From Polyangiaceae bacterium (GTDB lineage Bacteria > Myxococcota_A > Polyangia > Polyangiales > Polyangiaceae): a stretch of DNA of 64,000 nt. The notes beneath the pieces are model-generated. The model was not told where the DNA came from and did not search any database. It worked only from the letters and a program-made list of their open reading frames with translations. Position numbers and translations under genes: made by a program. The DNA lies in contig JAICQO010000019.1 in the NCBI GenBank assembly GCA_025937835.1, forward strand, positions 1 to 64,000. Direction: 5' to 3'. Each line of letters opens with the position of its first letter. Position 1 is the stretch's first letter. Of this stretch, positions 28,081 through 44,869 are shown in pieces.

Positions 28081-28949
28081 GCGCCCGAGCCCTGACCGAC
28101 CGCCTGAGCCTCGGCTCGGGGCTCCGGGTCAGCCCGTTTTGCCTGGGCCTGGTCACCGATCCCGACATCGTGGTCGCGGCGTTCGACGCCGGGTTGAACT
28201 TCTTCTTCGTGAGCGCCGACATGCACTGGCCGCTCTACGAGCCGGTGCGCGAAGGCCTGCGCCGGCTGCTCTCGCGGGGCACCGCCGTGCGGGACGAGCT
28301 GGTGGTCGCGGTGGTGAGCTACGTGACGCAGCCCGAGTTCTGCTACGCGCCCTTCTACGAGGTGCTCGAAGCGCTGCCCGGGCTCGAGCACGTGGATCTG
28401 GGCGTGATCGGCGGCTCGTACGCCTCGGATTTCATGACGCGGCTCGCAGAGTACGAGCGGCGCCCGGCCGGCATGCGCGGCATCGCTGCCAGCTTCCACC
28501 AGCGCGAGGCCGCCGCCACGGCGATCTCGCACGGGCTCCTGGACCTCGCGTTCGTTCGTTACAACGCCGCGCACGCGGGCGCCGAGCTCGATCTGTTCCC
28601 GCGCGTGCCCGCCGAGGCGCAGCGCCGCACCAAGCTGTTCAACTTCAAGAGCGTGTCCGGCTACGTGCCGCCCGCGCGCCTCGCCGAGCTCGGGTTGCCG
28701 CGCGAGAAGTGGCGGCCCGAGCCGCAGGATCACTACCGCTTCGCGCTGCGGCGGCCGGAGCTCGACGGCGTGCTGTGCGCGCTCGACAGCGCCGACCAGA
28801 TCGAGGCGCTGTCCCGGCTGCTGTCGGGGCCTGTGCTCACCGAAGACGAGGCCGAGTATCTGAAGACGCTGGCCGCGCTCGACGGAGGGCAGCTCGCGCT
28901 CGACGACGCCGGGCCCGAGTCGGCCGAAGCTCGGGTCGAGTCGGCATGA
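28077..28949 (+). CDS. Aldo-keto reductase-like protein with degenerate active site
   Basis: A 290-residue protein with (alpha/beta)8-barrel-like segments of aldo-keto reductases: GSGLRVSPFCLGL, VAAFDAGLNFFFVSADMHW and LAEYERRPAGMRGIA. The classical catalytic tetrad Asp-Tyr-Lys-His is not evident: the DTA position reads VSAD, the Lys strand reads VVAVVS, and the His strand lacks the motif. It may act as a binding or modifying partner in peptide maturation, or use a different chemistry. It overlaps both the upstream regulator and downstream HlyD genes by ATGA, so it belongs to the same transcript. Confidence 0.75.
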   Translation: MSARALTDRLSLGSGLRVSPFCLGLVTDPDIVVAAFDAGLNFFFVSADMHWPLYEPVREGLRRLLSRGTAVRDELVVAVVSYVTQPEFCYAPFYEVLEALPGLEHVDLGVIGGSYASDFMTRLAEYERRPAGMRGIAASFHQREAAATAISHGLLDLAFVRYNAAHAGAELDLFPRVPAEAQRRTKLFNFKSVSGYVPPARLAELGLPREKWRPEPQDHYRFALRRPELDGVLCALDSADQIEALSRLLSGPVLTEDEAEYLKTLAALDGGQLALDDAGPESAEARVESA

Positions 28950-30154
28950 GCACGAACTTCCAGCGCACGCTCGGCGCGGTCGAGAGCGACGGCCACGGCC
29001 GGAGCTTGATCCTGATCTCGAGCCTCTCGCTGCTGCTCGCGGGCGGGGTGTCGTGGCTATCACTCTCAAGGGTGAATGTGTACGTGACCAGCGACGCGGC
29101 GCGCGTCGAGGTCGAAGAGAGCGCTCACCCGGTCCAGGCCACCGTCGGCGGCAGGGTGGTTCGGGTTTCTGGCGCGCGCCTCGGTGACCGGGTCGAAGCC
29201 GGCGCGCCGCTGCTCGAGCTCGACCCAACCCCGCGGCGCATCGAGCTCGGCCGCGCGCGCGCGGTGTGCGAGGCGCGGCGGCGCTCGATCGAAGCGCAGC
29301 ACGCAGCGCTCGCCAGCGAGGCCCGGGTGCTCGTGCGCGACGCCCGCGCGGCCGACGCTGCGCTCGGCGCCGCCCGGGCCCGCCAGCGGGCCGCCGAGAG
29401 CCTGGCCAAGGTCGCCGACGAGAGCTCGCGCATCGCGCAGACCCTGCACGAAAACGCGCTGCTCTCGCAGCACGAGCTCTTGCGCGAGCGCTCCCAGGCC
29501 GAGGAGCGCTGGGGCACGGCCAGCTCGCTCGAGTCGGAAGCGGTGTCGATCGACGCCGAGCGCAAGGTGAAGCTCAACGAGCGAGCTTCGAACATCGACC
29601 AGCGCAAGGTCGTGATCGCCGAGCTCGAGGCCGACGTGGCGGAGTGCGAGGGCGACCAGAAGCGCCTCGAATACGAGATTGGCATGCACACGATCCGCGC
29701 GCCCGTGAGCGGCGTGATCGCAGAGCTCGTGCCGCTGACGCCCGGCGCGGAGCTCGCGAGCGGCGGGCGCGTGGCTGCCGTGGTCCCGAGCGGCGCGCCG
29801 CGCGTCGTGGCGGAGCTCGTGCCCGGGCCGAGCGTCGGGCGCGTGCGGCCGGGGCAGCAGGTGCGCTTCGCGCTCGACGGCTTCCCGTGGCTGCAATACG
29901 GCTTCGTCGAGGGCAACGTCGCGCACGTCGGCAGCGAGCCGCGCGGCGGGCGGATCCGCGTCGAGTGCACGGTGCGCGAGCACCCAGCGGGGCTGTCGCT
30001 CGAGCACGGCTTACCCGGGCGGGCCGAGATCATCGTCGAAGAAGTGAGCCCGTTCACGCTGCTGCTCCGCGCCGCAGGCCAGGCCGCGCTCGACCTCGAA
30101 CGCGCGGTTCCGAGCGCTGGCGGCGCTCCGAACGCCGCGGGCGCGCCGCGCTGA
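28946..30154 (+). CDS. HlyD-family membrane-fusion (adaptor) protein
   Basis: A 402-residue periplasmic adaptor for a type I-like exporter. One membrane helix (residues about 20-42) anchors it. The lipoyl/barrel-sandwich domain halves flank a long alpha-helical coiled coil (residues about 95-230, rich in Ala/Glu/Arg heptads). The segment MHTIRAPVSGVIAEL is the family hallmark, followed by a beta-barrel (GLPGRAEIIVEE). It connects the ABC exporter with an outer-membrane channel. The channel (TolC) is not in the window. It starts at ATG 28946, overlapping the upstream stop, and is nine bases from the C39 exporter. Confidence 0.9.
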   Translation: MSTNFQRTLGAVESDGHGRSLILISSLSLLLAGGVSWLSLSRVNVYVTSDAARVEVEESAHPVQATVGGRVVRVSGARLGDRVEAGAPLLELDPTPRRIELGRARAVCEARRRSIEAQHAALASEARVLVRDARAADAALGAARARQRAAESLAKVADESSRIAQTLHENALLSQHELLRERSQAEERWGTASSLESEAVSIDAERKVKLNERASNIDQRKVVIAELEADVAECEGDQKRLEYEIGMHTIRAPVSGVIAELVPLTPGAELASGGRVAAVVPSGAPRVVAELVPGPSVGRVRPGQQVRFALDGFPWLQYGFVEGNVAHVGSEPRGGRIRVECTVREHPAGLSLEHGLPGRAEIIVEEVSPFTLLLRAAGQAALDLERAVPSAGGAPNAAGAPR

Positions 30155-30163
30155 GGCTCGGCC

Positions 30164-32932
30164 ATGGCCCTGTTCTTGCTCGCCGGCCGCCGCTTCTTCG
30201 CCCCCGAGATAGTCCAGACCTCGGCCACTGATTGCGGCCCGGCGGCGCTGGCGTCCGTGCTCGCAGGCCACGGCATCTCGGCCGACTACGCGAGGCTGCG
30301 CGAGGCGTGCCAGACCAGCGTCGACGGCACTTCGATCGACACGCTCGAGGAGATCGCGCAAAAGCTCGGGTTGAACGCCGCGCAGTACATCCAGCGCCCC
30401 GAGGATTTACTGCGCGCCGAGGCCAAGAATTTTCCGTCGCTGCTCGTGACCCGCTTGCCCGAGGGCGGGCTGCACTTCGTCGTGGCCTGGCGGCGCGCGT
30501 TCGACTTCATCCAGATCATGGATCCCGGCAGCGGCCGCTCCTGGATCCGGAAGAGCGCGCTCGAGCGGATGCTGCACGTGCACGAGCAGACGATCGCCGC
30601 CGAGGACTGGCACGAGTTCGCCGCGCACGGGCCGTTCGAGAGCGTGCTCCGCAGGCGCCTCGAAGGCCTGCTCGGCGCGAACGGCGGTCGCGAGCTCGAT
30701 CGAGCGCTCGAAAGCCGCGACTGGAGCGAGCTCGCGAGCCTCGACTCCGCGGCGCGGCTATTGGAACGGCTGTCGGCGGCGGGCGTGGTGCGCGGCCGCC
30801 CCCGGCTGTCGCGCGCCTTCGAACGGCTGCGGGCACAAGCGCGGCTCGAAGCCGGAACCGGGCCGGAGACGATACCGGACCGCAGCTGGTCGGTCCGGCC
30901 GCGCGGCAGCCCGTCGGAACTCTCCTGGACGGGCGCGGTCGCGCTGCGTTTGCTCGGCAAGCGTGAGGCCGCGCCCGAGACCAGCCTCGAGCCTGAGCTC
31001 CGCGCCAGCGTCACCGGCGTGGCTCGCTCACCGCTCGCGACGCTGCTCGCCCTGCTGCCGAGCGGGCGCGTCACGGTCGCGCTGCTGCTCGGGCTCTCGG
31101 CGCTGATCGCCGTGTTCGGCGTGGTGGCTCAGGGCCTCGCCGTGCGCGCGCTGCTCAGCATCGATCAGGTGCTGTTGCTGTCGCGCCAGCGCTTGCTCGG
31201 CCTCGGTCTGTACGCGGGCCTCCTGGCGCTGCTCTTGGCGGCGGATCTCGTCACGCAGGGCTTCCTGTTGCGCGCGGGGCGGCGGCTCGAGGCGCGGCTC
31301 TGGGCGGCGATCCTCGAGAAGGTCCCGAAGCTGCCCGAGCGCTATTTCAAGAGCCGGCTGCTCACGGACCTGGCCGACCGCGCGCAGAGCGTGCAGCACC
31401 TGCGGCGTCTGCCGGGCTTCGTCTATCAGGCGCTGCGACTCACGCTCGATCTGGCGCTGACGGTCGTGGTCTTGGCGCTCGCGGATCGCGAGAGCTTGCC
31501 GCTGGCGGGCGCGGCGTTCGTGCTCACGCTGTTCTTGCCGCTCGTGTTCGGGCCGCTGGTTTCGGAGCGCGATCTGCGCCTGCGCACGCACCAGGTGGCG
31601 CTGTCGCGGTTCCTGTTCGACGCCCTGCTCGGAGCCATGCCCGCGCGCTCGCACCGCGCCGAGCGCGCGCTCAAGCGTGAACAGGAGGGCGTGCTCGTCG
31701 AGTGGGCGCGCTCCGCTCGCTCCGCGGTGCAGGTTTCGGTCGCGCTCGGCGCCGTGCAAGCGCTGTCGAACGCGGGCTTTCTGATCTTGCTGTTGTTCGG
31801 CTACGTCGAGCGCCACGGCGCGCTCGGCGGCGGGCTCCTGGTGGTGCTCTACTGGGGTGGGCGCTTGCCGCTGCTCGGGCAAGAGCTGGTCGGCCTGCTC
31901 CGCGAGTACCCCGTGCTCCAGAACGTCGCCGCGCGCCTGGTCGAGCCCTTGAACGCGCCCGAGGAGACGCCCGAGTCTCGGCACGCTCGGATCACGCTCA
32001 TCCCGAGCGACCAAACACATGAAATTCCGGCGAGGCCGGCGCGGCCTGCCCCGGGCAAAGATCAGTCGCGAGACGCTCCTGGCTCCGAAACACGAAAACG
32101 GGGAGCCCGCATCCAACTCGAGGACGTCTCGGTGCGCGTCTCGGGCAAGACCTTGCTCGAGGACATCAAGCTCGAGATCCCGGGCGGCTCTCACGTCGCC
32201 GTCGTCGGCCGCTCGGGCGCCGGCAAGTCTACGCTGCTCGGCCTGTTGCTCGGCTTTCACCAGCACGACGGCGGCCGCCTGCGCATCGACGGCGAAGCGC
32301 TGACCCCGGCGGCGCTCGAGCGGCTGCGGCCGGACGTCGCCTGGGTCGATCCCGCGGTCCAGCTCTGGAATCGCTCGCTGATCGAGAACGTGCGCTACGG
32401 CAGCGTGCGCGAGCCGTCCGCGGCGCGCACCGGCCAGGTGATCGCCGACGCCGCGCTGATCGACGCCCTCGAGCGCCTGCCGGAGGGCATGCAGACCGAC
32501 CTCGGCGAGGGCGGGCGCTTGCTGTCGGGCGGCGAGGGCCAGCGCGTGCGCCACGCGCGCGCGCTGTTGCGCCCGAACGCGCGGCTCGTGCTGCTCGACG
32601 AGCCGTTTCGCGGCCTCGAGCGCGGGCTGCGCTCGTCGCTGCTTTCGCGCGCGCGGAGCGTCTGGTCGCGCGCCAGCCTTTTGTGCGTGACCCACGACAT
32701 CGCCGAGACCGCGGATTTCGACCGAGTGCTCGTGCTCGAGGACGGCCGCATCGCCGAAGACGGTCGGCCGCAGGCGCTGCTCGCCGATCCGAGCTCGCTC
32801 TACGCGCGGCTCTTCCAGGCCGAGCGCGCGACGCTGGAAACGCTCGCCACCTCCGAGCGCTGGAGGCGCCTCGAATTTTCCGAAGGCCGTCTGGTTCCCA
32901 AGGACCCGCCACGCCGAGAAGAGCCGAAATGA
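30164..32932 (+). CDS. Peptidase C39-ABC exporter, leader-cleaving
   Basis: A 922-residue exporter that removes a double-glycine leader and pumps the peptide out. The N-terminal C39 peptidase is intact: Gln18 and Cys24 in QTSATDCGP, His104 in GGLHFVV and Asp120 in IMDPGSG. An unusual stretch of about 150 residues without clear family (about 140-290) precedes the membrane domain of about six helices (residues about 300-590). The ABC domain has Walker A GRSGAGKST (Lys688), the signature LSGGEGQR, Walker B LVLLDEP and the H-loop VTHD. It couples to the HlyD gene and overlaps the next exporter gene by ATGA. Confidence 0.92.
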   Translation: MALFLLAGRRFFAPEIVQTSATDCGPAALASVLAGHGISADYARLREACQTSVDGTSIDTLEEIAQKLGLNAAQYIQRPEDLLRAEAKNFPSLLVTRLPEGGLHFVVAWRRAFDFIQIMDPGSGRSWIRKSALERMLHVHEQTIAAEDWHEFAAHGPFESVLRRRLEGLLGANGGRELDRALESRDWSELASLDSAARLLERLSAAGVVRGRPRLSRAFERLRAQARLEAGTGPETIPDRSWSVRPRGSPSELSWTGAVALRLLGKREAAPETSLEPELRASVTGVARSPLATLLALLPSGRVTVALLLGLSALIAVFGVVAQGLAVRALLSIDQVLLLSRQRLLGLGLYAGLLALLLAADLVTQGFLLRAGRRLEARLWAAILEKVPKLPERYFKSRLLTDLADRAQSVQHLRRLPGFVYQALRLTLDLALTVVVLALADRESLPLAGAAFVLTLFLPLVFGPLVSERDLRLRTHQVALSRFLFDALLGAMPARSHRAERALKREQEGVLVEWARSARSAVQVSVALGAVQALSNAGFLILLLFGYVERHGALGGGLLVVLYWGGRLPLLGQELVGLLREYPVLQNVAARLVEPLNAPEETPESRHARITLIPSDQTHEIPARPARPAPGKDQSRDAPGSETRKRGARIQLEDVSVRVSGKTLLEDIKLEIPGGSHVAVVGRSGAGKSTLLGLLLGFHQHDGGRLRIDGEALTPAALERLRPDVAWVDPAVQLWNRSLIENVRYGSVREPSAARTGQVIADAALIDALERLPEGMQTDLGEGGRLLSGGEGQRVRHARALLRPNARLVLLDEPFRGLERGLRSSLLSRARSVWSRASLLCVTHDIAETADFDRVLVLEDGRIAEDGRPQALLADPSSLYARLFQAERATLETLATSERWRRLEFSEGRLVPKDPPRREEPK

Positions 32933-35043
32933 GCGAGCTCGGTCTCGACCCAATCACCTTTTTGCCGAAGCAGCTCGGGGATGTGGTCGGCGTGCTGGCG
33001 CGCCGCTTCGGCAAGTCCGGGATGCAGGTGCCGCGGCCGCCCATCGACCTGTTGCTCCCGAGCGCGGTCCAGCGCTGGATGGAAGGCGCCGCCACGGCCG
33101 TGGGTCTCGAGGCGGAGCCGATCGGGATCCCGCTCGCCGAGCTCGAGACGGTGCTGCGGCGCGCCGAGTGCCTGCTCATCCCGCGCGGGCGCGGATTTCT
33201 GGTGTTGCTCGCGGGCGGCGCCGCACGGGTCACGCTGCTCGGACCAGACTTCGCTCCACGGCGGGTCGGACGGCGTGCGCTCGCTCGTGCCCTGCGCCTC
33301 GAGCGCGCAAGCACGCTGTTCGGTGACGGCCCGCTCGGTTCGCTCTCGGAGCTGCTCGAGATCCGCGCGGGCGACACGAAGACGCTCGAACGCGCGCTCT
33401 CGGAGCTCGCCGCGGACGCGGAGCTCGGCCCGTGCTGGTTGTTCCGTACCGCGGCGGGGGAGCCGTATTCGCGGCAGCTGCGGCGAGCGCGCGTGCCGGG
33501 CGCGCTCGGGCTCGCGCTCGGGCTCGGGCTCTTGCAAGCGGCGCTCGGGGCGGGCTCGTGGCTGGTCTTCGGCTCGGAGGCGCTGCACGGCCGGCTCGAC
33601 TCCGGGAGGCTCTACGCCTGGGCGCTCGTGCAGCTGCTCGTGATCCCGTTCCAGCTCGGCTCGAGCTGGTTGCTCGGCGAGGTCGCGCAGCGCATCGGGC
33701 TGTCGTTCAAGCGCCGCTTGTTCGACGGCGCGCTGCGCATGCCGCTCGACCTCACGCGGCGCGACGGCGTGGGCGGCTTGCTCGGCCGCGTCAACGAGGC
33801 GGCCGCCGTCGAGGCGCTATGCGTCGCGGGCGGGCTCGGGGCGCTGGGCGTCGCCGCGGATTGGCTGATGGCGATCGTGCTCCTGTCCCGGACCAGCTAT
33901 CCGGCGGCGAGCATCGCGGTCTTCCTGCTCTTGACGCTGGTGCTCGGCGTCACGTGCTTCGATCTGATGCGCCTGCAACGCCGCTGGATGTTCGAGCGCA
34001 TCCGCTTGACCGGCGGCTTCGTGGAGCGGCTGATGGGCTACCGCACCCGGCTGGTTCAAGAGCCGCGCGCGCGCTTTCACGACGCCGAGGATCGCGAGCT
34101 CGAAGCCTATTTCGCGAGCTCGCGCAAGCTCGACCGGCGGCGCGTCGCTTACGGCGCGCTGCCGCGGCTGTTGCCGATCGCGGGCATCGTGCTGCTGGTG
34201 CCGCTGTCGGTGGGGCCTGCGTCCGGCGGGCTCGGCGCGCTCGTGCTCACGCTGGTGGCGATCATGACCGGCGCCTCGGCGCTGTCGCGGCTCTGGGACC
34301 TGCTCGGGCTGTCCGTGTCGGCGACGCTCGCCTGGCGTTCGGCGTCGGCGCTGTTCCGCGCGTCGCAGCTCGACCCTCCCACGCCGCACCTGTATTTCCA
34401 GGACACGGTCGCGCAAACCCGGGCGTTCGGCGACGTGCTGCTCGAGGCGCGCGAGCTCAGCTTCCGCTACCCGAACCGGCCGCGACCGGCGCTCGCGGGT
34501 GTGAACCTGCGGCTCGAGCGCGGCGACCGCGTGCTGATCCAGGGGCCTTCCGGCCGCGGCAAATCGACGCTGCTCGCGATTCTGTCCGGGCTGCGCGCGC
34601 CCGAATCGGGGCTGCTCCTGGTGCGCGGGCTCGATCGCCACGTGCTCACGCCCGGGCAGTGGCAAGCGACCGTCGCCGCCGTGCCGCAGTTCCACGAAAA
34701 TCACGTGTTCACGAACAGCCTGGCCTTCAACCTGCTGATGGGCAGGAGCTGGCCGCCGAGCGCTCAAGATCTCGAGGAAGCGCGCCTCGTCTGCGAAGAG
34801 CTCGGCCTCGGTCCGTTGCTAGCGCGCATGCCGGGCGGCCTCTTCGAGCCCGTCGGCGAGACCGGCTGGCAACTCTCGCACGGCGAGCGCAGCCGCGTGT
34901 TCATCGCTCGCGCCTTACTGCAACGCGCCGAGCTCACGGTCCTGGACGAGAGCTTCGGCTCGCTGGATCCGGAGACGTTGCAACAGGTGATCCCGTGCGT
35001 GGGGCGAAGGGCCGGAACTCTGGTCGTGTTCGCGCATTTGTAG
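32929..35043 (+). CDS. Second ABC exporter, no peptidase, short C-terminus
   Basis: A 704-residue ABC exporter half-transporter. The first about 195 residues are a non-membrane domain with no C39 Cys/His/Asp. The membrane domain follows (about six helices, residues about 200-490). The ABC domain has Walker A GPSGRGKST (Lys545), a signature reading LSHGERSR, Walker B LTVLDES and ends with FAHL, that is, at the H-loop His. The protein therefore lacks the usual helix after the H-loop. It may pair with the C39 exporter as a heterodimer or act as an immunity pump. Start at ATG 32929 overlaps the upstream stop. Confidence 0.85.
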   Translation: MSELGLDPITFLPKQLGDVVGVLARRFGKSGMQVPRPPIDLLLPSAVQRWMEGAATAVGLEAEPIGIPLAELETVLRRAECLLIPRGRGFLVLLAGGAARVTLLGPDFAPRRVGRRALARALRLERASTLFGDGPLGSLSELLEIRAGDTKTLERALSELAADAELGPCWLFRTAAGEPYSRQLRRARVPGALGLALGLGLLQAALGAGSWLVFGSEALHGRLDSGRLYAWALVQLLVIPFQLGSSWLLGEVAQRIGLSFKRRLFDGALRMPLDLTRRDGVGGLLGRVNEAAAVEALCVAGGLGALGVAADWLMAIVLLSRTSYPAASIAVFLLLTLVLGVTCFDLMRLQRRWMFERIRLTGGFVERLMGYRTRLVQEPRARFHDAEDRELEAYFASSRKLDRRRVAYGALPRLLPIAGIVLLVPLSVGPASGGLGALVLTLVAIMTGASALSRLWDLLGLSVSATLAWRSASALFRASQLDPPTPHLYFQDTVAQTRAFGDVLLEARELSFRYPNRPRPALAGVNLRLERGDRVLIQGPSGRGKSTLLAILSGLRAPESGLLLVRGLDRHVLTPGQWQATVAAVPQFHENHVFTNSLAFNLLMGRSWPPSAQDLEEARLVCEELGLGPLLARMPGGLFEPVGETGWQLSHGERSRVFIARALLQRAELTVLDESFGSLDPETLQQVIPCVGRRAGTLVVFAHL

Positions 35044-35099: not shown

Positions 35100-35172
35100 T
35101 ACTCCCGGGAGGACTTGAACCTCCATTCCCAGGCTGAAAGGCCCGGTGTCCTGACCCTTAGACGACGAGAGC
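35100..35172 (-). tRNA. tRNA-Glu (anticodon TTC), unusual anticodon arm
   Basis: A cloverleaf is readable on the minus strand. The acceptor arm is GCTCTCG (5' end at 35172) with CGGGAGT plus discriminator A (3' end at 35100), and no CCA is encoded. The D-arm is GTCT/GGAC. The T-arm is GGAGG-TTCAAGT-CCTCC. The anticodon TTC sits in CTTTCA. The anticodon arm is 18 bases instead of 17 (CCGGG, an 8-base loop, CCTGG), giving either an 8-base loop or a 6-base stem with a 6-base loop; the variable loop is one base short. Strong resemblance to other bacterial tRNA-Glu elsewhere in the molecule. Confidence 0.8.
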
Positions 35173-35284: not shown

Positions 35285-36904
35285 TTGGGCGACGACACTC
35301 TGGTCCCCGGCCGAGTCATCTCGGGACGCTTCCGCTTGCAGCACATGCTCGGCCGCGGCGGCATGGGCAGCGTTTGGGAGGCGTACCACCTCGCGCTCGA
35401 GACCGAGATCGCGATCAAGTTCCTCGATCCGCAGCTCTCGAGCCGGACGGACATCCGCTCACGCTTCGCGCAGGAAGCCACGGCGGCGGCGAGGATCAAG
35501 AGCTCGCACGTGGTCGGCATCCTCGACTACGGGTTCACGGAAGACGGCCGCGGCTTCATCGCGATGGAGCTCTTGAAGGGCGAGGACCTCGCGCAGCGCA
35601 TCGATCGGCTGGGCGGACTGACGCCGCCGGAAGCCGCCGAGATCGTCACGCAAGCCTGCCGCGGCCTCACCAAGGCGCACCAGATCGGCATCGTCCACCG
35701 CGATCTCAAGCCCGAGAACCTGTTCGTGGTCGAGGACGACGACGGCGTGCTCGTGAAGATCCTCGACTTCGGCATCGCCAAGGCCGTCGGCCTGAGCAGC
35801 GGCTCCGCGCACAAGACCGACACGGGGCAAATCCTCGGGACTCCGTTGTACATGAGCCCCGAGCAGGCGCTCGGACGCTCGATCGACTCGCGCTCGGACC
35901 TGTACTCGCTGACGGTGGTCGCGTACCGGGCCCTCGCCGGCCGCCCGCCGTTCGTGTGCGAGGCCGTCGGAGAGCTGATCGTGGCGGTCAGCACGCTGGT
36001 CGCGCCGCCGCCCTCGACCTTCAACCCCACGCTCCCGGCGTCGCTCGACGCCTGGTTTGCGGGGATGATGTCGAAGGATCCGAACGCGCGCTCGTGCCAG
36101 ACCGCGCGGGAGCTGGCCGAGTCGTTCGAGGCGGCCTGCCGGAGCTCACCCGCCTCCGCTGCCCGCGCCTCGAGCAGCAACCCGCGCGTGCTCGCGAACG
36201 CCTACACGCCCACGGTCCCCGAGACGCCGAGCGAGGGGATTTCTTCGCCCGGTGTCCACCGCACCGAGGCCGGCGTGACCGCGGGTGTGGCGCCCACCAC
36301 GCCCGTCGGCGAGCTCACCGATCGCACGACTCTGCCGAGCCAACGCCCGCGCCCGCACAAGCGACTCGGCACGGGTGTGGTGCTGCTCGGCGTCGCCGCT
36401 GCGGTCGCGATCAGCGCGCGCGGTTTGCTGCGCCCGGGTCCCGAGCCCGAAGCTGCCGAGCCGCTGCGCAGCGTCGTCGCTCCCGCTCCCGTCCCCGACG
36501 TCGTGCTGCAGCTCTCGGCTTCGCCCGCGAACGCGAGGCTCTGGCTCGACGGCAAGCCCGTGCCCAACCCGCACCTGGAGAAGCGCGCGCCGAACCCGGC
36601 GTCGCACGAGCTGCGGGCCGAGGCGCCGGGCCACGCGCCCGCACGCCAGACGTTCACGCTCGACCGGGACCAGCGCGTCGACCTGCGGCTCGAGCCCCTG
36701 CCGGCTCCCGCACGAACGGCCTCCGCCGCGCCGGCGACCCCGACGCCGAAAGCGCCTCGCGCCGTGGCCGTGCCCGTGCCCGCTCCTCCGCGCTCCGCCG
36801 CCCCACCGCCCTCCGCCGCAACGCCGGCACCGCCACCCGCGCCGCCCCCGAGCGAGCCCGCCAAATCCCCCTTCAAAATCGATCGCTCCGACCCATGGAA
36901 ATGA
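35285..36904 (+). CDS. Eukaryote-like Ser/Thr protein kinase 2
   Basis: A 539-residue kinase with TTG start. The kinase domain (residues about 12-275) has MLGRGGMGSVWEA, IAIKFLDP (Lys), HRDLKPENLF, LDFGIAKA (DFG) and GTPLYMSPEQALG. A Ser/Thr/Pro-rich linker is followed by one membrane helix (GTGVVLLGVAAAVAISARGLL), a PEGA-like beta domain (LQLSASPANARLWLDGKPVPN) and a Pro/Ala-rich tail ending FKIDRSDPWK. The PEGA-like part would face the periplasm. It overlaps the TPR/PEGA gene and stands between the exporters and the peptide precursors, so a regulatory role for the RiPP locus is likely (inference). Confidence 0.9.
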   Translation: MGDDTLVPGRVISGRFRLQHMLGRGGMGSVWEAYHLALETEIAIKFLDPQLSSRTDIRSRFAQEATAAARIKSSHVVGILDYGFTEDGRGFIAMELLKGEDLAQRIDRLGGLTPPEAAEIVTQACRGLTKAHQIGIVHRDLKPENLFVVEDDDGVLVKILDFGIAKAVGLSSGSAHKTDTGQILGTPLYMSPEQALGRSIDSRSDLYSLTVVAYRALAGRPPFVCEAVGELIVAVSTLVAPPPSTFNPTLPASLDAWFAGMMSKDPNARSCQTARELAESFEAACRSSPASAARASSSNPRVLANAYTPTVPETPSEGISSPGVHRTEAGVTAGVAPTTPVGELTDRTTLPSQRPRPHKRLGTGVVLLGVAAAVAISARGLLRPGPEPEAAEPLRSVVAPAPVPDVVLQLSASPANARLWLDGKPVPNPHLEKRAPNPASHELRAEAPGHAPARQTFTLDRDQRVDLRLEPLPAPARTASAAPATPTPKAPRAVAVPVPAPPRSAAPPPSAATPAPPPAPPPSEPAKSPFKIDRSDPWK

Positions 36905-37911
36905 CCTCCCGAGCGCTCGCCCTGGCCTTTCTGTTCGGCTCTGTCCCCGCGCTCGCCGCCGAGACGCCGCCGAGCGCGTCCGCTCCTGGCGAGTCGCCTG
37001 AATCGCCCGAATCGCCTCCTGCGAGCTCGGAGTCGGGCCCGGACATTTCCTCGCAGCTCCGAGAAGCGTCCGAGCGCTACCAGCGCGCGCTCAAGAGCTA
37101 CGACGACGGCAACTTCGACGCCGCCCTCGTCGAGTTCCGACGCGCCTACGAGCTCGCCCCCACCTTCCGCATTCTCTACAACCTCGGCGTCGTCAGCCTG
37201 GAGCTCCGCGACTACGCGAGCGCGCTCGGCTACTTCGAGCGCTACCTGGTCGACGGTGCCGCGTCGATCTCCGCCGAGCAGCGCGCGGAGGTGGAAAAGA
37301 AGATCCGCGACCTGTCGACGCACGTCGCGCACGTCACGGTCGTGGTCGATCTGCCCGGCGCCGAGATCGCCGTCGACGACCGCCCGGTGGGCGCCTCGCC
37401 GCTCGCGGCGCCGCTGCGCATCAACGCCGGCACGCGCAAGATCTCGGCGCGCGCCAGCGGGCGGGTGCCGGATGTGCGCGTGATCGAGCTCGCTGGCGGC
37501 GACTCCTCGCGCGTCGAGCTCAACCTGACGAACCCCCGCACCCCCGTGGCGGTGCTGCCGCCGCCGAGCGCCGAGCCGCCCTCTCGCCCCATCCCCTGGC
37601 TGGCCTGGGGCGGCACCGCGGTCCTGACCGGAGCCGCGGTGCTCGTCGGGCTGCAAGCCGTCGCGGCCGACCGCGACTACGACGACGCGCTCGACACCCC
37701 GGGTACGTCCCGGGAGCGCCTCGACGACGCCGACGCCAAGGCCACGCGCCTGAGCGTCGCCGCGGACGTGCTTGGCGTCGGGGCGCTCGCGCTCGGCGGC
37801 TACGCTCTCTATCTGACACTGCGCCCTGCCGAGTCGGCTTCCCCCGCCGCAGCGCTCGAGCTGGGGCTGGACCTGGGACCGCGGGGCGCGCGCCTCCGCG
37901 GCTCGTTCTGA
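36895..37911 (+). CDS. Exported TPR / PEGA-like membrane protein
   Basis: A 338-residue protein starting at ATG 36895 (ATG 36901, overlapping the kinase stop as ATGA, is equally possible). Signal peptide with cleavage near ALAAE. Residues about 60-140 hold two TPR units (YDDGNFDAALVEFRRAYELA). A PEGA-like beta segment follows (VVVDLPGAEIAVDDRPVGA). Two hydrophobic helices lie near the C-terminus (about 240-262 and 290-308). This kinase-plus-TPR/PEGA pairing repeats the one at 21.8-24.6 kb and fits a kinase with a periplasmic partner. Confidence 0.78.
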   Translation: MEMTSRALALAFLFGSVPALAAETPPSASAPGESPESPESPPASSESGPDISSQLREASERYQRALKSYDDGNFDAALVEFRRAYELAPTFRILYNLGVVSLELRDYASALGYFERYLVDGAASISAEQRAEVEKKIRDLSTHVAHVTVVVDLPGAEIAVDDRPVGASPLAAPLRINAGTRKISARASGRVPDVRVIELAGGDSSRVELNLTNPRTPVAVLPPPSAEPPSRPIPWLAWGGTAVLTGAAVLVGLQAVAADRDYDDALDTPGTSRERLDDADAKATRLSVAADVLGVGALALGGYALYLTLRPAESASPAAALELGLDLGPRGARLRGSF

Positions 37912-38081: not shown

Positions 38082-38345
38082 ATGACCTCCCGCAAGACCG
38101 ACAAGAAGCTCGAGCTCAAGGTAAAGCGCGTGCTGAAGACCAGCGTTCGCGGTGGCGTCGCCAAGTTTGGCGGCGAGATCGTCGCGGGCAGCGCCGTGGT
38201 GCAGACGCTGGCAGAGAGCGAAGAGGGGCAGTCTGCCGTGGCCTCGTCGAAGCGTTCGGGCAGCTACGGCAGCCGGATGCCCACCGACATCGGCGGCGCG
38301 ATCAGCGGCATCGTCGGTGGTGGCGGCTTCAAAGCCTCCGCCTGA
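38082..38345 (+). CDS. RiPP precursor peptide 1 (candidate)
   Basis: An 87-residue peptide with a good ribosome-binding site (AAGGA at 38071-38075) six bases before ATG 38082; the frame upstream is not used. The leader, residues 1-25, ends VRGG at 22-25. Aligned without gaps to precursor 2, it matches at 14 of 25 positions, including Leu10, Leu12-Lys13-Val14, Arg16-Val17-Leu18-Lys19-Thr20-Ser21 and Arg23-Gly24-Gly25. The core of 62 residues contains 10 Ser and 2 Thr, no Cys, and Gly-rich tail. It is the first of two, followed after 183 bases by precursor 2. Confidence 0.8.
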   Translation: MTSRKTDKKLELKVKRVLKTSVRGGVAKFGGEIVAGSAVVQTLAESEEGQSAVASSKRSGSYGSRMPTDIGGAISGIVGGGGFKASA

Positions 38346-38394
38346 TGTCGCCTCGGTCCCCCAAACACTAAAAGATCCTCACACGCTCGCGTTG

Positions 38395-38411
38395 GCCGGC
38401 CACTGGCCGGC
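38395..38411 (+). promoter_or_regulatory. Intercistronic hairpin between the two precursors
   Basis: GCCGGCC (38395-38401) and GGCCGGC (38405-38411) make a perfect 7-base stem with a 3-base loop in the 183-base gap between the precursor genes. No T-run follows, so it is not a standard terminator. It could stabilise the upstream message or slow elongation and so set different amounts of the two peptides or of the large dehydratase (inference). Confidence 0.4.
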
Positions 38412-38528
38412 ACGCGAAACGACGTCGGGCGCTGCACGTAAGTGCGCTCAGTCGGCGCGCTCTGCGTTAGACTCGAGACCCCCTCGGCGCCCTGCCCCGG
38501 CCCGAGCCCGCCAAAGAAGGTTACCCCC

Positions 38529-38777
38529 ATGGACTCCATCGAACTCAAGAAGCCGCTCGATCTCAAGGTTCGCCGCGTCCTGAAGACGAGCCTGCGCGGC
38601 GGCACTGCCCGCACGCACATCGCCGGCGACATTTCCAACAACATCTCCGCCACGTTCGAGACTTCGCCCAATCCGCTGCCGCCTCCGCCCGACAACAGCG
38701 GCATCCCGAACTCGGCGACTGGCCCCGGCGGTGAGGGTGGTTCGTACAAGAGCCGCGGCGCCACCAGCAAGCGCTGA
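38529..38777 (+). CDS. RiPP precursor peptide 2 (candidate)
   Basis: An 82-residue peptide with ribosome-binding site AAGAAGG ending at 38520, eight bases before ATG 38529. The leader (1-25) ends LRGG and shares the fixed leader pattern with precursor 1. The core of 57 residues holds 8 Ser and 6 Thr, no Cys, and a Pro-rich middle (PLPPPP). Both cores contain the motif GSY-x-SR near their C-terminal third. The end of this gene overlaps the dehydratase gene by 47 bases in another frame, so the two are tightly coupled. Confidence 0.8.
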   Translation: MDSIELKKPLDLKVRRVLKTSLRGGTARTHIAGDISNNISATFETSPNPLPPPPDNSGIPNSATGPGGEGGSYKSRGATSKR

Positions 38778-41700
38778 CGCGAGCGCGCGCGGCTTCGATC
38801 TCGGCCGCCGCTACGAGGACTCCGGGTTCTTCGTTCTGCGAAGTCCGCTGCTGTCCTTGGACGAGCTCGTGGGATGGTCCGAGCGCGACGAAGGTGCGCT
38901 CGGCCGCGACGAGCTCGTCGCTCGCCTGCGCCGCGCCTTCGACCGGCCCGAGCTGCGTGAAGCGCTGCTGTTTGCCTCTCCCGAGCTCGAACAGCGGCTG
39001 CCGGCCTGGCTCGAGGGCAAGAGCCCGGATCCCAAGCTCGACCGCACGCTCGCTCGTTACTACTCGCGAGCCGCGAGCCGCTCCACGCCGTTCGGCCTGT
39101 TCGCGGGCATCTCGGTGGGCGCGATCGCCGAGCACGATGCGCTCGCGCTGGGCCCGATTTCGAGCCACCGGCGCCACACGCGGCTCGGCATGGCCTACCT
39201 GCTCGGCAGGCTGCGCGAGCTCGCCGCGCGAGAAGACGTCATCCCCCGCCTGCGCTTCGAGCCGAGCTCGACGCTGTACCGCGCCGCCGGACGGATCCGC
39301 TTCGCGACCCTGGCTGTCGACACGAAGCTCGGCGTCGCTCCCTCCTACCCGGTGATCGACGTCGAGCCGACGCCGCACCTCGAGGCCGCCCTGTCCCGCG
39401 CTCGGGATGGCGCGACGCTCGGTGAAATCGCGGCGGCGCTCGTCACCCCCGAGGTAGACGCGGAGCGCGCCGAGTCCTTCGTGCGCGAGCTCGTCGAGCA
39501 TCAGCTCCTGGTGCCCTGCTGGATCCCGCGCATGAGCGGGCCCGAGCCGTTCGACGCGGCAGCCGCGGCGTTGCGCGACGCGGGGCTCGAGTCGGAGGCA
39601 AGCTCGCTCGCGGCCGCGACCCGCAGCTTGGAGGAGCTCGACCGCGCACCTCCGGAGCGCCGTCTCGACGGCTACCGCGCGCTCGTCGCCGCGACGGTCG
39701 TGGGCGACCCGCCGATCGAGCCGTCGCAGCGCTTTCAGACGGATCTCGTCAAATCCGGAGCCGCGCTCGCGCTCGGGCGCTCGACGCTCGCGGCCTTGCT
39801 ACGCGCCGCCGAGCTCGTGCAGCGCGTCTCGACCAGCGGCGCCGATCCGCGGCTCGAGGAGTTCCGCGCCAAGTTCAGCCTGCGCTACGAGGGCCGCTTC
39901 GTGCCGCTGGTCGAGGCGCTCGATGCGGATCTCGGCATCGGCTACGACCGCTTCGACGCCGAGACCCAGGGCGAGCTGCTCGAAGATTTGCCGTTCTCGC
40001 GCAAACCGAGCGCCGTGGAGCGCTTCGACGCCTACGACGCCGCGCGCCTGTTCCTGCTGAATCGCGCGCTTTCTCGGGGCGAGCGTGTGCACGAGCTCGA
40101 CGACGAGGAGCTCGAAAAGTTTCCGCGGCGCGAGCCGGATCCGCTGCCCGAGTCGTTCGCCGTGCTGGCCCGCTTGGAACGAGCTCCCGAAGGCGAATCT
40201 CGAATCGTGGTGCCGCACGTGATCGCGCCATCGGCGGTGTCGCTGATGGCGCGCTTCTGTCACGCGAGCCCGGAGCTCACGGCCGCCGTGCAGCGTCACG
40301 TCGAGCTCGAGAGCGCGCGCGCCCGGGAGCCGCTGGTCGACGTCGTGCACATGCCCCACGGGCACGTCGCCAACATCCTGCTGCGCCCGGTGCTCCGCGG
40401 CTACGAGATCCCCTATCACGGCAAGTCCGGCGCCCCCGTCGAGCGACAGCTCCCGCTCGAAGATCTGTACGTGGGTGTCGAGGCGGGCCGCCTGGTGCTG
40501 CGCTCGAAGCGACTGGGACGGAACGTCACCGTCCGCATCAGCAACGCCCACAACTTCGAGGGCTGGTGGAACCTGCCGCTCTACCGCTTCCTCGGCGCGC
40601 TCCAGCTCCGGTACCACGGAGCTCTGGCGAGCGCCTTCTACTGGGGAGCGCTCGATTCGAGCCCATTTCTGCCGCGGCTCGTCCGCGGCGGCGTGGTGTT
40701 GTCGCTCGCGCGCTGGAACCTCGCGAAGGCCGAGCTCGGGCCGGCCGACGGGGGAGTGCAGAGGCTCCGGGAACGCCTGGATCTACCGCGCTGGGTCACG
40801 CTGTCCGACGGCGATCAGCGGCTAGCGATCGATCTCGACAATCCGCTCAGCGTCGAGATGTTGTGGCACGAGGTCCACCAGAAGAAGCACTTCTCGCTCG
40901 AGGAGCTGTGGCCGGCTCCGGAAGGCCTCGCCGCTTCGGGGCCCGAGGGTCGGTTCGCGAGCGAGGTGCTGGTGCCGTTCGTGCGTCGCGAGGCCGTCGC
41001 TGCCGAGCGGCCGTCGCCGCTGCCGCCGTCGCCACCCGCGCGCCCGCTGCTCGAGCTCGAGCGCGCCGCCCGCAGTCATCCGCCGGGCTCGGGCTGGCTC
41101 TATCTCAAGATTTACTCTGGGCGTTCGCGGCTGCGCGGCCTGCTCGAGCAAGCGGCAACAGCGCTTGCCTCGACGGCGCTCGCACCGCACGTGGAGCGCT
41201 GGTTTTTCGTGCCCTTCGCGGATCCGGAGCCGCACCTCAGGTTGCGGGTGCGCGGTGAGCCCAGAGCGCTGCTCGCGCGCGTTCTGCCGGCGCTCCACCG
41301 AGCCCTGGCCGAGGAATTCGCAAACGGCTCGATCGCGCGGCTCGAGCTCGCGACTTACGAACGCGAGCTCGAGCGCTACGCGGGAGTCGCCGCCACCGAG
41401 CTCGCCGAGCAGCTCTTCCATGCGGACAGCCTGGCCGTGGTCCAGCTCTCCGAGCTGCTCGAAGAGGACGGAGCGGCGTTCGAGCTCACGGTGCTCGGCA
41501 TCCACCGCCTGCTCCTCGATTTCGGCCTCGACGTCCAGGCGCGGCTCCGCTTCGCCAGGACGGCCGCCGACGACTACGGGAGTGAGTTCGGCGCCACGAC
41601 CGAGACCTGGAAGAAAATCGGCGAGAAGTTCCGCAAACACGGGCCGCGCCTGACGCAGCTGTTGTTCGGGGATTTGCCCGAGGAGGATCCGGTGCGGCGC

Positions 41701-41949
41701 GCGCAGGCGAGCTTCGACGCACGCTCCGAGCGCGCCGTGGCCGTGCGCCACGCCCTCGCGGAGCTCGGCCTGCCGACCGCCGAAATCGAGGAGCTTCTGC
41801 ACTCGTACGCGCACCTGCACGCGATCCGAGTGCTCGGGGATTCGGCGCGCTGGTACGAGCTCGTGGTGTACGACTTTTTGCGCCGGCTCTACGCGACCGA
41901 GGCGGCTCGGGCTAACATCCGGCCCTCCAAGAAGGGTTCCGCTTCGTGA
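38731..41949 (+). CDS. LanB-type lantibiotic dehydratase (glutamyl-tRNA-dependent)
   Basis: A full-length dehydratase of 1072 residues from GTG 38731; the next start candidates lie well downstream, after conserved sequence. It should glutamylate Ser/Thr side chains using glutamyl-tRNA(Glu), then eliminate to Dha/Dhb (known for NisB). Glutamylation domain: Arg37 in FFVLRSPLL, and Arg113, Arg117 and Thr119 in SRAASRSTPFG, the same spacing as NisB Arg83/Arg87/Thr89. Elimination domain from about residue 785: His835, Arg837, Arg839 in PHLRLR, Glu879 and Arg882 in YERELERY, and His1028 in YAHLHAIRVLG. No cyclase is adjacent. Confidence 0.9.
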   Translation: MRVVRTRAAAPPASADASARGFDLGRRYEDSGFFVLRSPLLSLDELVGWSERDEGALGRDELVARLRRAFDRPELREALLFASPELEQRLPAWLEGKSPDPKLDRTLARYYSRAASRSTPFGLFAGISVGAIAEHDALALGPISSHRRHTRLGMAYLLGRLRELAAREDVIPRLRFEPSSTLYRAAGRIRFATLAVDTKLGVAPSYPVIDVEPTPHLEAALSRARDGATLGEIAAALVTPEVDAERAESFVRELVEHQLLVPCWIPRMSGPEPFDAAAAALRDAGLESEASSLAAATRSLEELDRAPPERRLDGYRALVAATVVGDPPIEPSQRFQTDLVKSGAALALGRSTLAALLRAAELVQRVSTSGADPRLEEFRAKFSLRYEGRFVPLVEALDADLGIGYDRFDAETQGELLEDLPFSRKPSAVERFDAYDAARLFLLNRALSRGERVHELDDEELEKFPRREPDPLPESFAVLARLERAPEGESRIVVPHVIAPSAVSLMARFCHASPELTAAVQRHVELESARAREPLVDVVHMPHGHVANILLRPVLRGYEIPYHGKSGAPVERQLPLEDLYVGVEAGRLVLRSKRLGRNVTVRISNAHNFEGWWNLPLYRFLGALQLRYHGALASAFYWGALDSSPFLPRLVRGGVVLSLARWNLAKAELGPADGGVQRLRERLDLPRWVTLSDGDQRLAIDLDNPLSVEMLWHEVHQKKHFSLEELWPAPEGLAASGPEGRFASEVLVPFVRREAVAAERPSPLPPSPPARPLLELERAARSHPPGSGWLYLKIYSGRSRLRGLLEQAATALASTALAPHVERWFFVPFADPEPHLRLRVRGEPRALLARVLPALHRALAEEFANGSIARLELATYERELERYAGVAATELAEQLFHADSLAVVQLSELLEEDGAAFELTVLGIHRLLLDFGLDVQARLRFARTAADDYGSEFGATTETWKKIGEKFRKHGPRLTQLLFGDLPEEDPVRRAQASFDARSERAVAVRHALAELGLPTAEIEELLHSYAHLHAIRVLGDSARWYELVVYDFLRRLYATEAARANIRPSKKGSAS

Positions 41950-43625
41950 AGCTTGGCCTCGGGTTTCGGATCGTCTCGTTCACGGCCTGTGGGTTCGTGT
42001 TGCTGTCGTGCTCGCTCGCCCTGTCGCGCGACGACGACCAATGTTCCGACAGCCTCGACTGCCAGCGCTTCGGCTCGGAGTTCGTGTGCTCGACCGACCA
42101 CGTCTGCGTCACGTACACGAAGAGCGAACGCGGGGGCGACGGCGACGGCGGCGACGAATGCCGCACTCACGCCGACTGCGCGGCGAAGGTCGGCCCGTCC
42201 TTGTGCCGCGAGGGTGCGTGCCTGCCGCTCAACGAGCGCGACGTCGGCTGTGTCAGCTTGGATTGGGGCACGACTGCACCCAAGGACGGAACCGAGGTGG
42301 TGCCGATCGGCGTGCTGGCTCCACTCGGCGAGCTCGGAGCCACGTCGCGCCGCAAGTTCAGCGGCGCCGTCGGCACCGCCATCAACGAGCTGAACCGCGC
42401 GCGCGAGGAGCTCGGCGAGACGGCGCTGCCGGCGCTGGTAGCGGTGGCCTGCGACGAGAGCTCGGACGAGGCCGTGGCGTACCTGACGGAGACGCTCCGG
42501 GTGCGCGCGGTGATCGGCCCGGTCAGCGCCTCTCGAGCCGAGCACGTGGTCGATCGCAGCGGCGGAAACGCGGTGTTCTTCCTGCCCAGCGCCGACGGTC
42601 CGAACCTCTTGCCTCAAGCCAGCGACCCCAAGTCCTTGGTGGTCGGCTGCAAGCCGAACCGCGACGGGATCCAACCGCTGTTCTTGAGCGCCATCCGCGA
42701 GGTCACGGCGCGCGTCGAAGCCGAGACGGGTGAGCCAACGGAAACGGTGCTGGCCGTCAGTGAGGACGCGCCGACGGCCAGCTTCGCCGCCTCGCTGAAC
42801 GACAAGGACCTCGCTTCCGCCAACGTGCGGCGGCTCGAGTACATCGCGGGCCCGGGCGGCCGCGGCCTGGTCGGCGCGCTGCGCTCGCTGTCGCCGGCCC
42901 CGCACCTGTTGGTGGCCGCCTCCGGCGAAGACGACTGGGTCGGCAACATTTCGGCCGTCGACGGCGCGAGCTTTCGCGACAACGATTTCTATCCGTTCTA
43001 CTTCCTGGGCGAGAAGCGCTTCGAGCTCCTGGACACGCTCAGCGATCTCACCACTGCCGAGGGTTATCCGCGCCAGTACCATCGCGTGCTCGGACTCGAC
43101 TATCACAAGGACGAACGCAGCAAGCTCGCCTACGAAGACTTCCGCTTGGCCTTCGAGCTCGATCGCGGCGGCGGCGCGGGCTCCGAGCCGGAGCCTGGCC
43201 TGGAATACGCCTACGATTGCGCCTACGTCGCAGCTTACGCCATGACCGCAGCGCGCGAACGCCGGCTGTCGCAGGGCGAGCCCTCGCCGGACGCGATCGC
43301 CCTCTCGCTCGATGCCCTGGCGGGAGGCCGGGCCGTGCCGGTGCGCGCGCAGTCGATCGCCCAGGCCGTTGGCCTGCTCGCCGAGAACCGGGGAACGGCA
43401 GGCTCACTCGAGCTGCTCGGCAGCTCCGGCAAGCTCGACTTCTCGAGCGACGACTCGAGCGAGTCCGCTCGCCGCTACTACCGGCGCAGCACGCCCGACG
43501 GCGAGCTCTACTGCATCCCGAAGACCGGCTTGAAGACCTTCTGCGACACGGGTGTGGTGTTCCCGGTCGACGGCAGCGAGCCATCGGCGGACAACGGCAA
43601 GTGCGACTGCGCGGGGGCGCCGTGA
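41946..43625 (+). CDS. Surface lipoprotein with type-I periplasmic-binding (LivJ-like) domain
   Basis: A 559-residue protein starting at GTG 41946 (GTGA overlap with the dehydratase). The signal peptide has a lipobox-type end VLLSCS. A Cys-rich N-terminal module (residues about 30-100, about nine Cys) precedes a ligand-binding fold: PIGVLAPLGELG, VRAVIGPVSASRAE, VLAVSEDAPTASFAASL and HLLVAASGEDDW are the alternating strand/helix hallmarks of Leu/Ile/Val-type receptors. It probably binds a small ligand at the cell surface, in a module that could sense or protect against the locus's peptide (inference). Confidence 0.78.
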   Translation: MKLGLGFRIVSFTACGFVLLSCSLALSRDDDQCSDSLDCQRFGSEFVCSTDHVCVTYTKSERGGDGDGGDECRTHADCAAKVGPSLCREGACLPLNERDVGCVSLDWGTTAPKDGTEVVPIGVLAPLGELGATSRRKFSGAVGTAINELNRAREELGETALPALVAVACDESSDEAVAYLTETLRVRAVIGPVSASRAEHVVDRSGGNAVFFLPSADGPNLLPQASDPKSLVVGCKPNRDGIQPLFLSAIREVTARVEAETGEPTETVLAVSEDAPTASFAASLNDKDLASANVRRLEYIAGPGGRGLVGALRSLSPAPHLLVAASGEDDWVGNISAVDGASFRDNDFYPFYFLGEKRFELLDTLSDLTTAEGYPRQYHRVLGLDYHKDERSKLAYEDFRLAFELDRGGGAGSEPEPGLEYAYDCAYVAAYAMTAARERRLSQGEPSPDAIALSLDALAGGRAVPVRAQSIAQAVGLLAENRGTAGSLELLGSSGKLDFSSDDSSESARRYYRRSTPDGELYCIPKTGLKTFCDTGVVFPVDGSEPSADNGKCDCAGAP

Positions 43626-44869
43626 ACGGGCCGCTCGGCCGGCTCGCGGCGCTCTCGGCTCTCGCTGCGTTCGGCTGCAGCGGCCCCGAAAGCGCGGGGT
43701 CAGGCGCCACCGGGCTCTACACCGAAGCGGTCGTCAACGGCGAGCTTTCCGGCGACGACCAGAACTCGGTCGTGCTCATTTACAACAACCTGTTGTCCAA
43801 ATGGTGCACGGGCGCGGTGGTTGCTCCCACGCTGGTGCTCACGGCCCGGCACTGCCTGTTCAACTACAAGTCCGGACCGAACAACATCGTCAAGTGCGAC
43901 GAGCAGGGCGGCGTCTCGCAGGTCTACGACTCGTTCGACCCTGCCAAGCTCACCGTCAGCATCGGCAAGGAACGCGGACCGAACCTGGTGCCCGAAGCCG
44001 TCGGCGTGGAAATCTACTCGAGCGACGACCTCGACCTGTGCTTGAACGACGTGGCGCTGCTCGAGGTGGACACGCCCTTGTCGCAGCCCATTTTCCCAAT
44101 GCGGCTGGACGAGCCGCCCCGGGTCGGCGAACACGGCGTGCTCGTGGGCTGGGGAGCCAATGAAGGCGACGTCGACAGCGACCGGCCGCCGCTCAGCAAG
44201 CGCAGGCAGCGCGAGCTCGAGGTGCTCGCGGTCGGCCCGAAGAACTTCACCCCCGAGGGCGGCACCACTCGCTACATCGAGAAAGCCACCTTCATCGCCA
44301 CTGAAGGCGGGTGTCAGGGAGACAGCGGGGGTCCGTTGATCTCGACCGAGACCGGCGCCGTGTTCGGTGTGATGCACGCCATGCAAACCCCCGACCCCAC
44401 CCAGGGTCTCGAGTCCGACATCTCGATCGCCGACTGCCTCGGCGGCTTCACGGTGCTGCATCGCCTCGACGAGCAGGCGGAGTGGATCCGCAGCGCCTTC
44501 CGCAAGGTGGGCGCCGCGCCCTGGATCGAGAGCCGCCCCGTGCCGCGCGAGCTCCGAGAAAGTTGCGAGCTCGGCGACGACTGCGTTTCGGGCCTGTGCA
44601 TCCAGGCTGGTGAGAGCGCGTTTTGCTCGGTCCATTGCGACGACGCGGCGTGCCCCGCGGGTATGCAATGTGTCGGCGCCGAGCTCGATCGCGTCTGCAC
44701 CTTGCCGGAGGTCGAGAGCGCGGAGCCGAGCGCGGGCGGCTGCGCGTTGGTTTCCGGCTCGAGCTCCCATGCCGGCCCAGCACTGCTGCTTGCGGGCTTG
44801 GGCGCGGCGCTTTTTGCGCAGCGAAGGCGACGGAATCGGGCCTTGCAAGCGCTTCCGGACTCTGTCTAA
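43622..44869 (+). CDS. S1-family serine protease with MYXO-CTERM-like tail
   Basis: A 415-residue chymotrypsin-fold protease starting at GTG 43622 (overlaps the upstream stop). The signal peptide ends at a possible lipobox (AFGC). Triad: His in TARHC, Asp in NDVALLEV, Ser in CQGDSGGP. The primary specificity site three residues before that Cys-Gln reads GG, so position 189 is Gly, not the Asp of trypsin, and basic P1 specificity is not expected. A Cys-rich module follows, then a hydrophobic helix with an adjacent Cys and an RRRR tail, the MYXO-CTERM pattern used by a myxobacterial surface-sorting system. Confidence 0.87.
   Translation: MNGPLGRLAALSALAAFGCSGPESAGSGATGLYTEAVVNGELSGDDQNSVVLIYNNLLSKWCTGAVVAPTLVLTARHCLFNYKSGPNNIVKCDEQGGVSQVYDSFDPAKLTVSIGKERGPNLVPEAVGVEIYSSDDLDLCLNDVALLEVDTPLSQPIFPMRLDEPPRVGEHGVLVGWGANEGDVDSDRPPLSKRRQRELEVLAVGPKNFTPEGGTTRYIEKATFIATEGGCQGDSGGPLISTETGAVFGVMHAMQTPDPTQGLESDISIADCLGGFTVLHRLDEQAEWIRSAFRKVGAAPWIESRPVPRELRESCELGDDCVSGLCIQAGESAFCSVHCDDAACPAGMQCVGAELDRVCTLPEVESAEPSAGGCALVSGSSSHAGPALLLAGLGAALFAQRRRRNRALQALPDSV

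Follow-up and report, generated by a model that had tools for sequence, protein, structure and literature searches.

The window analysed here, a stretch of 64,000 nucleotides from a Polyangiaceae genome, carries a run of genes on the forward strand that includes two short open reading frames with a common leader, P1 and P2, together with a class I lantibiotic dehydratase (LanB) and an exporter with a peptidase domain:

26725-28080, + strand: FHA/sigma-54 activator, possible regulator (PF00158, PF00498); its stop overlaps the start of the next gene
28077-28949, + strand: aldo/keto-reductase (AKR)-fold protein lacking the catalytic D-Y-K-H tetrad (AF2, Foldseek, alignment)
28946-30154, + strand: HlyD-type membrane fusion adaptor (HlyD_3; type_I_hlyD, 2e-28); its ATG overlaps the AKR-like stop
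30164-32932, + strand: PCAT-type ABC exporter with an N-terminal C39 (double-glycine) peptidase (PF03412, PF00005); its stop overlaps the start of the next gene
32929-35043, + strand: second ABC exporter with no Pfam C39 domain (PF00005; NHLM-type transporters among its NCBIfam matches)
35285-36904, + strand: Ser/Thr protein kinase with a C-terminal PEGA domain (PF00069), recurring in several related clusters
36895-37911, + strand: TPR/PEGA-like protein just 5' of P1 (TPR and weak PEGA matches)
38082-38345, + strand: precursor peptide P1, 87 aa (ORF with the common leader; leader profile E=3e-9)
38082-38156, + strand: P1 leader, residues 1-25, followed by a putative core of 62 aa without Cys
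38529-38777, + strand: precursor peptide P2, 82 aa (ORF with the common leader; leader profile E=1e-9)
38529-38603, + strand: P2 leader, residues 1-25, followed by a putative core of 57 aa without Cys
about 38731-41949, + strand: full-length LanB (PF04738, 437 bits; PF14028, 174 bits; TIGR03891, 158 bits)
41946-43625, + strand: lipoprotein with weak ANF-receptor (ligand-binding) similarity (PF01094, E=0.008, below the cut-off)

The genes from the sigma-54 activator to the second ABC exporter (26725-35043) are joined by overlapping stop and start codons, and are followed by the kinase, the TPR/PEGA-like gene, P1, P2, LanB and the ANF-like lipoprotein, whose GTG overlaps the LanB stop. The order of kinase, TPR/PEGA-like protein, short peptide, LanB and ANF-like lipoprotein is repeated in a second LanB cluster of the same genome (C215, L037:8102-15984), where the short basic peptide contains LVLTVKRIL. 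Related clusters of other genomes also have the TPR/PEGA-like gene in the equivalent position and the ANF-like gene after LanB. A tRNA gene to which ARAGORN assigned no amino acid (35100-35172, - strand; Rfam, 45 bits) lies between the second ABC exporter and the kinase, and a trypsin-like protease, probably a lipoprotein, follows the ANF-like gene (43640-44869) and may belong to the cluster.

The first-pass annotation had placed two RiPP precursors with a common leader at positions 38082-38777. This interval contains both peptides, which are separated by 183 bases, but the dehydratase that starts inside P2 had been left out. In a gapless alignment of residues 1-25, 16 of the 25 leader residues are identical between P1 and P2, a value reached by none of 200,000 shuffles (best shuffle, 12). 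The identities listed earlier (L10, L12-K13-V14, R16 to S21 and R23-G24-G25) are exact, and M1, S3 and K8 are to be added. The cores are indeed Ser/Thr-rich and free of Cys, with 10 Ser and 2 Thr in P1 and 8 Ser and 6 Thr in P2. Purine-rich, Shine-Dalgarno-like stretches lie upstream of the ATGs of P1 and P2 (AAAAGGAAA, AAAGAAGG), and the third-position G+C of both ORFs is high (0.83 and 0.85). A GSY-x-SR motif is found in both cores as described, but its suggested role as a shared recognition element was not supported: it is weak evidence because 110 of 3000 shuffled pairs (3.7%) also share a window that agrees at 5 of 6 positions, and the motif was not seen in the cores of relatives. Beyond the leader, the two cores are not homologous to one another or to those of relatives, and a search with the whole of P2 matched relatives weakly because conservation is limited to the leader. 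Neither peptide matched a family in Pfam or NCBIfam (the latter at E<=1), and the NCBIfam class I leader models L1a and L1b recognised neither P1 and P2 (E<=1) nor the relatives in the leader family (E<=5).

The start of LanB is uncertain in its exact position and is probably a GTG within the 3' end of P2, so that the two genes overlap. The protein aligns with NisB (4wd9) and two further solved dehydratases (5ehk and 9g04), and retains the motifs RSTPFGLF, HLRLR, ELERY and HLH as in NisB and its relatives; from what is known of NisB, we take the first to be the glutamylation motif and the other three to be elimination motifs. A conserved N-terminal leader precedes a variable, Ser/Thr-containing core, and a full-length two-domain dehydratase is adjacent. 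Since this run of genes also encodes the C39 exporter, and leaders of this type accompany LanB clusters of other genomes, the earlier proposal of two RiPP precursors is well supported. We regard P1 and P2 as genuine precursors, and most likely as LanB substrates that yield a thioether-free product.

The distribution of the leader was examined with profile searches. The leader HMM is very specific and matched at 10 places in five of the 318 genomes of the class, nine of them in clusters with LanB, AKR-like or ANF-like genes and one beside LanC. A slightly wider profile searched against 379 genomes of the phylum added only G531 (the genome of locus L051) and G098 at E<1e-7. The family comprises P1, P2, two peptides of G136 and members from G151, G098, G129, G145 and L051, with the common pattern L-x-L-x-V-[KR]-R-[VI]-...-T-x-[VIL]-[RK]-x-G. 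The G136 cluster repeats the set of LanB, AKR-like, ANF-like, PEGA, HlyD and PCAT genes with two Cys-free precursors, whose leader reads LTL[SN]VKRIRTHVRGG. In the LanB tree, the enzyme of the window is sister to the second LanB of its own genome. The idea that the leader type tracks one LanB clade was not supported, since LanBs accompanied by a P1/P2-type leader are scattered in the tree; leader type and LanB have therefore not strictly moved together.

With regard to leader removal, the reading of P1 and P2 as double-glycine leaders stands in part. Position -4 (Val/Leu) and position -12 (Val) are hydrophobic, and the C39 domain of the exporter keeps its Cys, His and Asp residues in alignment with PCAT1, but position -7 is basic (Lys here, Arg in G136) and position -2 varies among relatives. 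The family ending is T-x-[VIL]-[RK]-x-G with an invariant final Gly, preceded by Gly in P1, P2, G136 and G129 and by Ala or Glu in G151, G098, L051 and G145. This variable -2 weakens a strict double-glycine reading, yet appears compatible with cleavage by a C39 peptidase. Since the family conserves just T-x-[VIL]-[RK] and the final Gly, a cut after Gly25 is no more than plausible. The same features bear on the alternative that P1 and P2 are small secreted peptides whose leader serves the C39 exporter alone, with no part for LanB. In its favour, the leader has GG at its end and a hydrophobic -4, and the cluster encodes a PCAT exporter, an HlyD adaptor and another ABC exporter; the basic -7 and the family's Ala or Glu at -2 fit it poorly, P2 overlaps LanB, and in G145 one leader copy lies directly beside LanB and a second beside LanC. 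We regard this alternative as very improbable.

To what extent Cys is used in this family appears related to LanC. Members without Cys are P1, P2, both G136 peptides, G151 and G098, and those with Cys are G129, G145 and L051. No LanC (PF05147) was matched in G136, in G098 or in the genome of the window, a draft that is 95.8% complete, so absence from the latter is not proven; LanC-type ORFs of G151 are present solely as long fusions. Stand-alone LanC ORFs of 412-492 aa are found in G129, G145 and G531, adjoining a precursor in G145 and on the same contig as the precursor in G531. Across these seven genomes (three with Cys and four Cys-free, two of the latter weak), core Cys content parallels stand-alone LanC, which is suggestive. 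Most of its weight falls on two of the Cys-free genomes, since no LanB was detected in G098, whose precursor is at the end of a contig, and the core of G151 has 8 aa. The peptide of the paralogous locus (L037:10751-11101) has one Cys though its genome gave no LanC match, and would be a counter-example if it is a member of the leader family.

The parallel could also be read as decay, in which LanC and the core Cys disappeared from an ancestral LanB/LanC pathway that is now degenerating without a functional product; retention of LanC in the genomes of Cys-containing members, and the lack of a match in the genome of the window, would be expected in this case. However, the ORFs of LanB, the exporter and the adaptor are intact and retain conserved catalytic motifs, the P1 and P2 leaders are still closely matched, and G136 retains the same cluster with Cys-free cores, and hence we consider decay improbable. 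A functional product of another kind would arise if dehydrated residues were closed into rings by Lys, His or the N-terminal amine, giving a non-thioether RiPP, for example of the lysinoalanine type. Lys lies near Ser/Thr in several Cys-free cores, such as SYKSR (P2), SAKSL (G136_b) and TAKTS (G098), and [ST]-x-K-[ST] occurs in three of 11 cores versus 0.6 expected from shuffles (P=0.019). On the other hand, this pattern was spotted post hoc, is absent from P1 and could result from composition alone, and the analysis identified no enzyme known to form lysinoalanine. Such closure is unlikely on present evidence, although somewhat less so than decay.

The AKR-like gene is another recurrent component. 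No Pfam or NCBIfam model fits the protein; its AF2 model (pTM 0.80) matched AKRs and SmbA in Foldseek, and alignment with AKRs of the same genome places V/L, H, V/S and G at the tetrad positions D, Y, K and H. Since the tetrad is missing, we did not retain the view that the protein works as a dehydroalanine reductase. Relatives with 43-54% identity are next to LanB in G136, G017, G100, G153 and G151, about 3 kb from LanB in G531 and beside the leader-family precursor in G098, and one in G304 adjoins exporters with no LanB within the 20 kb read. The gene was therefore rejected as a marker of Cys-free clusters, since in addition to G304 it occurs with Cys-containing precursors (L051, L053). The subfamily (28077-28949, L141, L142, L143, L144, L145, L048, L051, L052 and L053) conserves D48, H50, Y82, R161, N163 and H166, and repeatedly adjoins LanB in Myxococcota and Planctomycetota. 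A wider AKR-like family in many genomes of the order (L136-L140), apparently also without the tetrad, shares RYNAAHPGAE-x-DVFP and showed no tie to LanB in the cases seen. Searches of the open-access literature turned up nothing that links an AKR to lanthipeptide genes.

Considering these data, we think it probable that P1 and P2 give rise to RiPPs that are dehydrated by LanB, contain no thioethers and leave the cell through the PCAT protein. The 25-residue leader would bind to the LanB of the next gene, which we infer to glutamylate core Ser/Thr from Glu-tRNA and then eliminate glutamate to give dehydroalanine and dehydrobutyrine. Lanthionine rings would not be formed because the cores lack Cys and the genome lacks a LanC match, and the product may be a dehydrated peptide, either left linear or closed through a nucleophile other than Cys. 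Removal of the leader, probably close to or at Gly25, and secretion of the core would fall to the C39-peptidase exporter together with HlyD.

The P1/P2 system is a variant of class I LanB systems. Like class I lanthipeptides of the nisin type, it has a full-length LanB with glutamylation and elimination domains, a dedicated ABC exporter and a short leader with alternating hydrophobic residues; unlike them, it has cores without Cys, no LanC match in its genome and a leader outside the L1a/L1b models. The closest LanBs (36-42% identical) accompany peptides with L-x-L-x-[KR]-E-T-[VIL]-x-x-L leaders in Corallococcus, Kofleriaceae, Actinomycetota and others. Some of these leaders end in GG and some of the cores are Cys-poor, as here, but the leaders carry KET or RET, lack the T-x-V-R-x-G ending and are followed in most cases by Cys-containing cores. 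In goadsporin and thiopeptide systems, LanB-type dehydration takes place without a LanC cyclase. Their dehydratases, unlike the full-length LanB of the window, are split, and they contain azoles derived from Cys/Ser, whereas the scan of the cluster genes in the window revealed no cyclodehydratase. Lanthipeptide-type precursors with some Cys-free cores, hence incapable of forming lanthionine, are also known from the cyanotins (PMC7268733), which differ in being processed by the class II enzyme LanM rather than LanB and in their leader family.

Because the cores lack the cysteines needed for the usual sulfur rings, the product is probably ring-free or differently cross-linked, a less familiar variant of lantibiotic-type systems. 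More tentatively, the locus might represent a Myxococcota family of RiPPs that are made by LanB, have no thioether rings and carry a leader type of their own, in which LanC and core Cys were lost together and a catalytically rewired AKR-fold protein contributes to maturation or senses a ligand; the product would be poly-dehydro or unusually cross-linked. Genome mining that demands Cys or LanC misses peptides such as P1 and P2, for which the leader pattern offers a direct handle on further family members. The recurring tetrad-less AKR-fold protein is a candidate maturation partner, and a LanB acting on natural Cys-free substrates would provide a clean test of dehydration alone and of dehydroamino acids in other bonds.
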